NCBI GenBank assembly: GCA_026745465.1
Contig: JACYXH010000779.1
Span: 317,501-381,500, forward strand
Length of the DNA stretch: 64,000 nucleotides
DNA from: Lota lota
Taxonomy: Eukaryota > Chordata > Actinopteri > Gadiformes > Lotidae
Direction of reading: 5' to 3'
Shown here piece after piece: positions 20,299 through 29,357 of the stretch (positions are counted from its first letter, which is position 1; every line of letters begins with the position of its first letter). The notes below the pieces were generated by a model. The model was not told where the DNA came from and did not search any database. It saw only the letters and a list, made by a program, of their open reading frames with translations. A program made the position numbers and the translations under genes.

Positions 20299-23200
20299 AT
20301 GTTTCTCTTCCTCCTGACGCTGTGTGTGTGCATGGCCACAATGACCCATCTCTCCAGTGAGTTCCACACCTTCTCTATGTGTTTCTGTCCATGCTGGGCT
20401 CCACAAGAAGAGGGATTTTAACACACTTAGGTGTATTTCAGTGACAGGAGAACAGTTGCCGTTTGTTTGTGCTGTCGTTTGGTCGCCTGAGAAGTTTCTC
20501 TTTGTGTGTTTCTTTCTGCAGTGGCTGCAGACTGGTGCTACACTGGCTGTGGTGAGATGGCTCATGGCTTCTGGCATGAATATTTCGATTATTTAGAACG
20601 GGACTGCAAACTCTGAATCAGTTCATAGATTACAGCTAAATAAGAAGTGGTGGGGATACTGTAGTCTGGTCAAGGCATTGTGTAAGCCCTACACCAAAAA
20701 ACAACAACACTAAGCTAAAACCAAACTAAAGTAAAAACTTATTGGGGAACTTTGCTGTTTTTCTAATATATATGAGTAGGCATACTTCTTATATGTGTGT
20801 TGTGATGAACCGTTTTCTGCATCATCAACCCGTTTTTACACAAAATATGTGTGGAGAAGTTGGACCATCAATGTCCTTTTTCCCAACACGACCGATGGAG
20901 AACGCAAATCCAGGACAATGCCGTCAGTTCACAACACGATTATGAAGCAGTTAGCCTACTATATTATATTAGAAAACAGCAAGCGTGACGGTTCCCCTTT
21001 TAGAGAAACTAAAGCATCAAACCAAAAAAGTCCTCGTCCGTTTAGGTCACACTGCTGACACCTGGAGCCACTTGGCGGGGTCTTCCTGTGGGGGCCTCAT
21101 GCAGTCCCCCATCAATATTGCCAGCAGCAACGCCATCACCAATCCAGAGCTCCACGGCTTCACCTTCACCAACTTCATCGACCAACACGCTCTGACAATG
21201 CTCGTCAACAACGGTCACACAGGTGGGAGGCTCGGTGTCCCTAGCGCACAGCCTTTAACTCACTTTGACGCCTGTGACTCATTTAGCTCTGAACGTAACG
21301 GTATGTAGAGTGACTAAGCTAGCCTGGGTATCAGCACCGTCAGCCTGAATGGTGTTCCCTCCCTCGCATGGCGATCAGTGACGGGTAAGGTGGCGGAGGA
21401 GCAGTTGGAGGTCAGTGGCGGGGGGCTGAGCGGCAGCTACGATGTTTTCCAGTTGCATCTCCACTGGGGTGACACCGAACTGCACCCCGGCTCCGAACAC
21501 ATGCTGAACGACCAGCGCTACCCCATGGAGGTGACCGTGGTTTCTGCATGCACTCGTTAGATGCTACGCGGCACCTAGCAAGGCCTACTGCCCCTGACCC
21601 CTTTTAATTTTTTTGGTCTGTCTTTATTTATTTATTATGATCTGATTACCCTGTCTTGCTCCTGTTATGTTTGTTTGTTTGTTTCCTCTGTAAAGTGTCC
21701 TTGGGCTTAAGAAAGGCGCTTAATAAATCCCAGCTAGTATTATTATTATTTTTATTACGTGGTACATTGCTAATGGTACATGCTACATGCTACACGCTAC
21801 GTCCAACCAAAGATGTACTAATGAGAAGAAATTCGACTTGGCAGAATATGTGGAGCTAACTCCAGGGGTGCGACTGAGCGTAGACTGTAGGATGAAAGGA
21901 GAGTGCCACGATAGTTACCAAGTACTCCTCGTGTAGCAGCCACGTTCACACATCCAGAGATGCTGTTCAAATCCATCTGAAACATGTACCTTAGGTGCAA
22001 GACTTTTGCCTGCTTTAATCAACGGACGCTTATGTAAAGAAAACGGTACAATTGGGGAGGATTACACCATGACCAGCTGCTGTAAAGAAAGGAGGTTATA
22101 TCACATCCCTCAATTGTTTATCGGCGAATATTGGTTCATTCGTAATAACCCGTAGATTGTGTCATTTGCAAAGTAGCAGCGAATAGGCTGTGCACAGCTG
22201 CGCTAGACTGGGATTTTCATTTGAGTGCATTTTGCTCTGTTAACCCTCATGCATTCTGTCATATTATGGTCAACAGGTGCAGCATGCCTCTCTCTCTATA
22301 ATAGCACTGGAACAACACGCTATGTGCTAAATGCTATAGGCTGCAGGCTACATACATTGTGTGCCATAGGCTGCAGGCTACATACATTGTGTGCCATATG
22401 CTGCAGGCTACATACATGCTGTGCCATATGCAAGCTACATACATTGTGTGCCATATGCTGCAGGCTACATACATTGTGTGCTACATGTTACAGTCTACAC
22501 GCTCGCCTCAACATAGAATGAGTGATGCTTTGTCCAGTTGGCCATAATGTTATGGGTGGCTTTCCCCCATGAGACATTGGACTAACTACAACTACCCTAT
22601 ACTAATACTAATATTATATAGAGTGTTTAGGATAGCAATAGATTAATAGGCAAGCATTTAATAAGCAAGGGTTTGGCGTGGTTAAATTCAGAGCAATTAC
22701 CAACGGACATCAGTGCATTATGGGAAGAAGCACCAGAAAAGTGTCTAGTTAACCCGTAGATGGTATTTAAAGTTTGCTTTGTCTGTTTCATATCCCTGCC
22801 AGATGCACATCGTGTGCCTGAAAAAGGGTCTGGATATATTCCAGGCCGTTTCGGACCCCGAAGGCATCGCTGTCCTTGGCTTCTTTATTCAGGTACACTA
22901 AAACCTTTCTGTCCGTTTCTACCGCACTACGTTACCCACCGGGTTCGGTTCCAGTGTTGATGGCATGTCCTGGGGCCTCTGCAAAACAATGCAAAGTAAG
23001 TCAAAGCCTCCATTAGAGGATCTACTGAAGACAAGTAGCTTAAGCCACACCTAGCACTTCCATTTTCCTTCCTTTCCTAACACACTGCCGGAAGATGTTG
23101 AAAATGTAGTCATCTTGTTTTGTCTTGTATGATTGTAGAGCCATGATTTTGCCTTTCCAATTGTGTTATTTTTAGTAACATTACATTAGTTACTTAGCAT

Positions 23201-28000: not shown

Positions 28001-29357
28001 TACCACATACACAACCACACATATACCACATACATTACCACACATATACCACATACACTACCACACATATACCACATACATTACCACACATATACCACAA
28101 ATACACCCCCATATTTCGCCAGAAACATTTTGCAGTGGATCTACTCGTTATTTGTTATTTTGTGTGGTAACTCACGCGCGTGGGACACTCAACCCAAATC
28201 TTTACGCAAGATTGTTTTCCCGGGGGGGCCCACGCGGGCTTTGGCCCCAGGTGGACCCCTGTCTCTGACCGGAGCCCACCCCCTCTGTGTGACCCCAGGC
28301 AGCAACGCAAGCATCACTGAGGACATGTCTCTGGACGACCTGCTGGTGGGCGTCGACCGCTCGTCCTTCTACCGCTACAGCGGCTCGCTGACCACGCCCA
28401 CCTGCAACGAGGCCGTGATCTGGACCGTCTTCAAACAGCCAATCAAAATAGACAAGAAGCTGGTGAGTGAGTGTGTGTGTGTGTGTGTGTGTGTGTGTGT
28501 GTGTGTGTGTGTGTGTGTGTGTGTGTGTGTGTGTGTGTGTGTGTGTGTGTGTGTGTGTGTGTGTGTGTGTTTCTTAGCAAACAGTATAGATTCACCGCCT
28601 CTTCACAATTGATACTGATTTAATGTTACATCAATTGTCCAGATTTTGGAAAGGTGACGTTTCCAGTTGGATTGCTTCATAGTCAGGCTGTGGTTCAGGG
28701 CAGGGTGCTTGGTAATCGGCAGATTGTGTAGAGCTAATGACCAAAGGAGCCCTGCTGCCCGGTGTAAACGTTTGGCTCCAGCGCTGGACACACGCGAAGG
28801 CGTCTGTAGTTCACAGCGTCACAACGCTAGCTCAGAGTGGGAATATCTGGTGAATATCCAATATCTAAAAAAATCTAAAAAAAATCTAAAAACCCCCAAC
28901 ACTTTGGACCTGCGTAAGCTGCCGTTGAGATGTGGGATTTTTAATAATACACCACAGTAGCGCTGTGGTGCCACACCTTTCAGTTTTGATGTCGGTACCT
29001 TCCTTTTCTAACGACATTGATTCATACTATATAAAACGCTTGTTTGCTCCCGTGGTAAATGTTCTGCCCTCACTTCCTGTTCCTGACACACCCTTTAATT
29101 GGGTTAGCTGTGAACCACCTGCTGGTCTGTGTCCTGGGGGACGGGGAATGGGCCTCTAACCCTCAAGCTGGTCTGGTCTGTTTGGCCTTCAGCTGGACGC
29201 CTTCCCCCGAGAGATGGGCTTCCAGCGGGTGTACCGCCCCCCCCAGCCGCTGGGCAGGAGGACCATCTCCACCCGGGCCTCCTCCTCATCTGCGCCCAGC
29301 TGCTCCGCCACGCTCCTCCTCCTCAGCCTCCTCGGCCCGCTGAGCGCCACCGTCTAA
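25080..29357 (+). CDS. Carbonic anhydrase IV-like domain B (GPI tail, no signal-peptide exon)
   Basis: Second alpha-carbonic anhydrase domain. Exons: 25080-25115 (EHAWCYDGHC), 25296-25472, 25943-26094, 26195-26284, 27300-27372, 28299-28462, 29193-29357. Exons of 177, 152, 90 and 164 bp match domain A exactly. Zn ligands are in LQVHFHWG and MHIV; GSEH and SLTTPTC are conserved, but the proton-shuttle position is Arg (NNGRTG). The C-terminus (SAPSCSATLLLLSLLGPLSA) is a GPI-attachment signal. No signal-peptide exon and no AATAAA lie between 24867 and 25080; the first exon needs a phase-1 partner, and the donor at 24821 supplies one. Domains A and B together would give 565 residues. If domain B is instead a separate gene, its first exon is missing or unrecognised. 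Confidence 0.88.
26557..26689. repeat. Two adjacent perfect hairpins
   Basis: Arms 26557-26584 and 26588-26615 (28 bp, 3-base loop) and arms 26613-26650 and 26652-26689 (38 bp, 1-base loop) are exact inverted repeats. The second uses the unit of the minisatellite that follows, so the array begins with inverted copies of its own unit. Confidence 0.9.
26640..27292. repeat. Minisatellite in intron of CA domain B
   Basis: About 22 copies of a roughly 29-bp unit, CCTGTCTCTGTATCCACTG followed by TCTAACCCCTA, with a shorter variant containing GTAACCCTT. It fills most of the intron between exons 26195-26284 and 27300-27372 and stops about 10 bp before the acceptor. Confidence 0.95.
27415..27535 (+). 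mobile_element. Degenerate SINE-like fragment
   Basis: A box-B-like word (GGTTTGAATCC) is followed by CTGTAGGCATCCTTAAAC and CCCTAACCCTCTACTTGCTC, a layout typical of tRNA-derived fish SINEs. It lies in an intron of CA domain B. Confidence 0.35.
27645..28105. repeat. Minisatellite, unit about 23 bp
   Basis: About 20 copies of CATACATTACCACACATATA followed by CCA, with ACATTACC/ACACTACC variants. It lies in the intron before the exon at 28299. The open frame over it (Thr-Tyr-His-Ile repeats) is an artefact. Confidence 0.95.
28467..28571. repeat. (TG)n abutting the exon-7 donor of CA domain B
   Basis: The donor reads GTGAGTGAGTGTGTG, so the repeat starts about 8 bp into the intron. Confidence 0.95.

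Follow-up and report, generated by a model that had tools for sequence, protein, structure and literature searches.

Two tandem carbonic anhydrase units of Lota lota probably form one gene for a GPI-anchored, double-domain variant of CA4

We analyzed a 64-kb stretch of the Lota lota genome (contig JACYXH010000779.1; "the window" is this whole stretch) and suggest that two tandem carbonic anhydrase (CA) units at 20299-29357, here called A and B, very probably make up a single gene for a secreted, glycosylphosphatidylinositol (GPI)-anchored CA with two catalytic domains. This one-gene reading is best supported because the joined frame is open, the phases agree at the junction, the splice sites are strong, the ends missing from the two units are complementary, and the junction is single-copy. 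We infer the splice from 24820 to 25080 that would join the units from the genomic sequence, not from transcripts.

The two units comprise 15 exons, eight in A and seven in B. Joined, they give a frame of 1698 nucleotides (nt) that encodes 565 residues with no internal stop, and all 14 introns of the joined model are GT-AG. Pfam finds Carb_anhydrase (PF00194) as two stretches in the joined chain (462.7 bits with a cut-off of 27, E 4.3e-139). A single catalytic domain marks the CA4/CA15 type; the joined frame has two, and the predicted product is, therefore, a variant of CA4 and not standard CA4. The features of the joined model are the following.

20299..20356, plus strand: exon 1, with the start codon, the signal peptide and a phase-1 donor; the better of two leader-type hits in 18000-20500
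20522..20551, plus strand: exon 2, domain A, a mini-exon with the WCY motif
21046..21222, plus strand: exon 3, domain A, reaching NNGHT (the His64 equivalent is residue 87)
21379..21530, plus strand: exon 4, domain A, with the zinc ligands His115 and His117 (alignment to human CA4)
22803..22892, plus strand: exon 5, domain A, with the third zinc ligand His141 (alignment to human CA4)
23616..23685, plus strand: exon 6, domain A
23901..24064, plus strand: exon 7, domain A, with the active-site loop GSLTTPSC
24721..24820, plus strand: exon 8, the end of domain A and the linker, with a phase-1 donor at 24821 at the position of the expected GPI tail
24821..25079, plus strand: junction intron from A to B, 259 nt
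25080..25115, plus strand: exon 9, the first of domain B, with the WCY motif and a strong acceptor, phase 1
25296..25472, plus strand: exon 10, domain B, reaching NNGRT (Arg350 in the His64 position)
25943..26094, plus strand: exon 11, domain B, with the zinc ligands His377 and His379
26195..26284, plus strand: exon 12, domain B, with the third zinc ligand His404
27300..27372, plus strand: exon 13, domain B
28299..28462, plus strand: exon 14, domain B, with the active-site loop GSLTTPTC
29193..29357, plus strand: exon 15, the end of domain B, with a Ser-rich omega-site region, a hydrophobic GPI-signal tail (judged by eye) and the stop TAA

The second leader-type hit in 18000-20500 begins at 20040. 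The sequence has an in-frame TAG immediately before the ATG of exon 1, and on reading 20279-20299 we also noted an acceptor-like AG; an upstream 5' untranslated exon ahead of exon 1 is possible.

As judged by eye from the sequence, the joined chain has a signal peptide at its start (exon 1) and a hydrophobic GPI signal at its C-terminus (exon 15). Exon 8 loses its likeness to CA where the last exons of B (29193-29357) and of a third CA gene in the window, gene 3 (44531-44707), have a hydrophobic GPI-type tail. Reading through donor 24821 adds 15 mostly polar residues before a stop at 24865-24867 (counted by hand). Because the last exons of B and gene 3 hold their hydrophobic tails in one piece, the donor within the last exon of A is a departure from this arrangement.

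To score the donor, we used a general vertebrate matrix and a second matrix made from 29 other CA-gene donors of the same genome. Under the vertebrate matrix, donor 24821 scores 7.93 and no other GT in 24721-25079 exceeds 2.36; among the 4401 plus-strand GTs of the window, 43 score as high or higher. Under the own-genome matrix, the donor scores 7.96 and is matched or beaten by 51 of the 4401 GTs. When ranked with the 29 CA donors, it comes 10th of 30 with the vertebrate matrix and 12th of 30 with the own-genome matrix (leave-one-out). At the other end of the junction intron, acceptor 25080 reaches a level attained by 13 of 4164 AGs and is the second of 30 CA acceptors. The junction DNA (24700-25300) has one match in the 575-Mb assembly of 867 contigs and, thus, we saw no further copy that retains the missing ends.

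Several observations weigh against the one-gene reading. The splice training set came partly from automatic alignment and several of its gene 3 junctions are wrong, although the vertebrate donor matrix is independent of these junctions. In addition, A and B could be two separate genes, with A encoding a secreted, soluble CA that ends in a short polar stretch, and B having its own leader or promoter inside A. Such an arrangement could make use of the stop 15 residues beyond 24821, of CATAAA at 25002 as a possible weak poly(A) signal for a separate A gene, and of two leader-like open exons within A, one at 24578-24671 in the last intron (weak donor, 3.57) and one at 22760-22892 that overlaps exon 5 in another frame. 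However, donor 24821 is strong and in the phase required by B. Moreover, across the whole window the leader scan gave 33 plus-strand and 20 minus-strand hits, and because the plus-strand density is about 0.5 per kb, two leader-like exons in A are at background level. The same scan recovers the A leader and the presumed gene 3 leader (40487), and it finds nothing above the window background ahead of B (20360-25079). Similarly, there is no canonical poly(A) signal between A and B, as neither AATAAA nor ATTAAA was found in 24821-25079. This absence is weak evidence because the 3' flank of B likewise lacks AATAAA up to 30500 and has ATTAAA at 30388; gene 3 has AATAAA near 45002, about 300 nt past its stop. 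Taken together, we consider two separate genes very unlikely.

These data bear on an earlier note about this DNA, which had described A as having a signal-peptide exon and a polar tail in place of a GPI tail, and B as having a GPI tail without its own signal-peptide exon. The exons and the read-through tail confirm the former, and the leader scan agrees with the latter. The phase-1 donor at 24821 and the phase-1 acceptor at 25080 that it had paired are both present and both high-scoring, and its uninterrupted joined frame of 565 residues was found as described. Two of its arguments held in part. The gap of about 260 bp between the units does lack AATAAA and ATTAAA, but the flank of B and CATAAA at 25002 deprive this of most of its weight; similarly, no start exon rises above background in front of B, but leader-like exons do lie inside A. 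Its overall proposal of a tethered double-domain enzyme made from two units is supported as the best reading by the frame, the phase, the splice sites and the single copy.

The strong acceptor at 25080 also bears on the possibility that A and B share a leader by alternative splicing, with exon 1 joined either to 20522 or to 25080 to give the double-domain form together with a GPI-anchored B that has one domain. The phases of exon 1 and of the exon at 25080 would permit this, and few acceptors in the window score as high as this one, but the splice would demand the skipping of seven exons, and the resulting form would be more an addition to the one-gene explanation than a competitor. We regard it as unlikely.

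Finally, the locus could reflect an artefact or decay, with sequence lost during assembly or a tandem copy that is degenerating, in which case B or the whole unit would be a pseudogene. Errors or decay do occur in this CA cluster, as the frame problem of gene 3 shows, and there are long simple repeats within the introns of A and B. By contrast, the window contains no N, the junction is present once in the genome, all 15 exons are intact with the catalytic residues kept, and a like architecture is reported from transcripts of other teleosts (PMC7918649). A pseudogene or artefact is, therefore, most improbable. In gene 3, two features are relevant here.

40487-40559: presumed leader exon with signal peptide; a phase-1 donor is possible at either of two points, after 40541 or after 40559
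44531-44707: last exon with hydrophobic GPI-type tail

Exon 6 of gene 3 has its best acceptor at 43974 and its donor after 44051, and its 78 nt compare with 70 in A and 73 in B. Across 43762-44051, none of the nearby GT-AG combinations tried kept the frame open between exon 5 and the last exon; gene 3 may be damaged, or there may be an assembly indel at this place. Thus, gene 3, which the earlier note had used as a complete reference, does have a presumed leader and a hydrophobic tail, but its frame appears to be interrupted at exons 5/6. Gene 3 has Arg in the His64 position.

Because the zinc histidines and the active-site loop are kept in both domains of the joined chain, A and B are probably both active, extracellular CO2/bicarbonate enzymes. 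Aligned to CA4, the zinc histidines are residues 115, 117 and 141 in A and 377, 379 and 404 in B, and the loop GSLTTP is present in both. The best PDB relatives of A and of B are human and mouse CA4 (5ipz, 1znc, 2znc); their histidines and loop align with those of A and B, but they have only one catalytic domain. The cysteines 25/29 and 44/228 in A and 287/292 and 307/492 in B may pair into two disulphides per domain, the arrangement of CA4. In the His64 position, A has His87 and B has Arg350, and B may have a slower turnover than A with Arg in place of the His64 proton shuttle. The frame of B is open across seven exons at 45-46% identity to A. Over 251 codons, the nonsynonymous divergence (dN) between A and B is 0.56 versus a synonymous divergence (dS) of 1.27, with dS near saturation and the ratio accordingly rough. 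The seven intact exons and these values argue that B has been kept by selection, and its open frame would hardly be expected of a leaderless gene that died long ago.

We, therefore, suggest the following model, in which GPI anchoring, activity, tissue and deletion route are all predictions from sequence. The product would be a secreted, GPI-anchored alpha-carbonic anhydrase of about 62 kDa before processing with two tandem catalytic domains. The lone signal peptide encoded by exon 1 would direct the chain into the secretory pathway, and the hydrophobic C-terminal tail of B would be exchanged for a GPI anchor. As a result, A would be membrane-distal and B membrane-proximal, connected by a linker of roughly 15 residues, and both active sites would lie outside the cell. 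Like other members of the CA4/CA15 group in the gill and skin of fish, the enzyme would likely convert CO2 to bicarbonate and back on the outside of the membrane, next to acid-base transporters.

To place A and B relative to other CAs, we calculated an unrooted tree that also included gene 3, two further CA4-like genes from the same genome, and partial CA4 sequences of human and mouse. A, B and gene 3 are split from the rest with a support of 96; the grouping of A with B is weak (support 67). Because the branches of A and B (0.67 and 0.52) exceed the CA4 branches of human (0.36) and mouse (0.32), the A/B duplication looks old. We suggest that two old tandem CA4-type paralogues could have become fused when A lost its GPI-encoding 3' end and B lost its promoter and leader. 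Such a deletion would have joined the last exon of A to the end of the old leader exon of B, and intron 1 of B would have been kept.

There is a hint in the junction intron itself that it is the former intron 1 of B and that 24821 is the old B leader donor, which is suggestive but post hoc. The start of the junction intron, GTGGGTTCCACA, and that of A intron 1, GTGAGTTCCACA, match at 11 of the first 12 nucleotides, and among 93 GTRRGT sites on both strands the junction is the one most like the start of A intron 1, after A itself. Scanning with the A leader exon on both strands, the junction scores 17. With the surroundings of A excluded, 9 of 6382 scan positions score at least 17, and these fall into four places, i.e. 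the junction, the presumed gene 3 leader, 30081-30121, and a site near 23041 on the reverse complement. In local alignments, the junction intron showed no significant similarity. The comparison with A intron 1, where 82 of 500 shuffles attain the score, counts against the proposed origin; nor was there significance against A exon 1 plus intron 1 (61 of 500 shuffles), gene 3 intron 1 (76 of 100), the next intron of B (51 of 200), the flank after the B stop (193 of 200) or the 3' end of gene 3 (200 of 200). In a separate observation, the region 30081-30210 is the top non-self place for the A leader exon with a score of 19, perhaps by chance from a TG repeat. Scans of part of B against a genome contig collection and of part of A against viral contigs gave 36 and 23 pattern stretches, respectively, none of which was confirmed in these collections, which hardly hold fish DNA.

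The earlier note had also held that vertebrate CA4/CA15 proteins have one domain. This is outdated, since a two-domain CA4 of fishes was described in 2021 (PMC7918649). In that work, CA4C is the third CA4 gene and encodes two CA domains in succession; it was found in the transcriptomes of 14 Eupercaria, described as 'unique to Eupercaria' and ascribed to 'a recent duplication event'. In Chionodraco hamatus, its expression is gill-specific and amounts to <5% of that of CA1A and CA4A. The A-B gene would resemble CA4C of Antarctic notothenioids and their relatives in being a CA4-like teleost protein with two consecutive CA domains and with single-domain CA4 genes alongside. In other words, A-B appears to work like CA4C, a likeness in architecture that we draw from the published description of CA4C. 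However, CA4C is reported only in Eupercaria and as a recent duplication, whereas A-B is present in a gadiform and its domains are 45-46% identical. The two fish cases may, therefore, be separate events, with recent twin domains in CA4C and seemingly old ones in A-B, and this difference also has to be set against our interpretation.

Two-domain CAs are also known outside fishes. Two-domain alpha-CAs have been reported in giant clams, Phreagena okutanii and Dunaliella, and six two-domain CAs of the alpha and beta classes were known at the time of that report (PMC5879104). MCACO2 of the vesicomyid clam P. okutanii (594 residues) has two alpha-CA domains that are 37% similar and a C-terminal hydrophobic segment and, as proposed here for A-B, a possible GPI site and both active sites thought to be outside (PMC5879104). 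By contrast, it is a mollusc protein, presumably of independent origin, and thought to serve chemosynthetic symbionts. DDCA/tgCA of Tridacna (601 residues) is gill-expressed and shares with A-B a signal peptide, tandem alpha-CA domains and membrane association, but it has a predicted internal transmembrane segment that would put the membrane between its two active sites (PMC5879104); no such segment is assumed for A-B. In cod, three CA4 gene models have been listed (PMC6858462). The excerpts of PMC9032886, PMC4393933 and PMC6639325 contain no mention of a two-domain fish CA. Likewise, a literature search covering titles and abstract openings, with most subscription journals and the protein databases outside its scope, found no two-domain CA in a gadiform.

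Thus, A-B is probably a further case of the published two-domain CA kind in another fish order and, because its genome is that of a gadiform, two-domain CA4 probably extends beyond Eupercaria. Either the fusion predates the split between eupercarians and gadiforms, or tethered double-domain CAs arose repeatedly in fishes, as in clams. A more elaborate scenario, which we hold to be quite unlikely, is a three-way splicing switch that yields the double-domain GPI form, a single-domain GPI-anchored B and, with 24821 unused, a soluble A, with a fusion older than, or independent of, eupercarian CA4C. If true, one promoter would offer a choice of freely diffusing, singly tethered or doubly tethered extracellular CA. 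What makes the A-B gene of interest is the wider distribution of the two-domain kind, the apparent age of both domains, and, in B, the Arg that takes the place of the proton shuttle. With their difference at the His64 position, A and B offer a natural experiment on the contribution of a second tethered CA domain. Such loci also matter for annotation, where an automatic pipeline may divide them or label the joined model a chimaera.

Elsewhere in the genome, we observed at least 100 exon matches to major histocompatibility complex class I (MHC-I), mostly in arrays on contigs C654, C823 and C169. A genome search for MHC-II beta gave no matches, in a setting in which no control gave a signal and the UDG family was likewise without matches, so that such zeros carry little weight by themselves. 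An expanded MHC-I together with a lost MHC-II is a trait of Gadiformes. One beta-globin exon is identical at 70 of 74 positions to 6hit_B, the next best being 1xq5_B; 6hit is presumably Atlantic cod haemoglobin, for which a literature search gave no confirmation. Taken jointly, the MHC and globin signs very probably mark a gadiform, perhaps one other than Atlantic cod in view of the four globin differences. Two other beta-globin exons and one alpha-globin exon had no near-identical PDB chain, and pattern searches for globin exon 3 gave no match.

Within the window, a retroelement-like remnant at 19072-20196 ends about 100 bases 5' of the CA start codon. By eye it resembles the end of a LINE (long interspersed nuclear element) reverse transcriptase; two of its frames gave no family in Pfam. 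On the minus strand, 46992-52833 contains a matrix metalloproteinase gene with one hemopexin frame and two matrixin frames in Pfam, and 57965-58642 contains a Tc1/mariner-type transposase frame that is open over 225 residues and has matches to the Tc3 and Sleeping Beauty helix-turn-helix.

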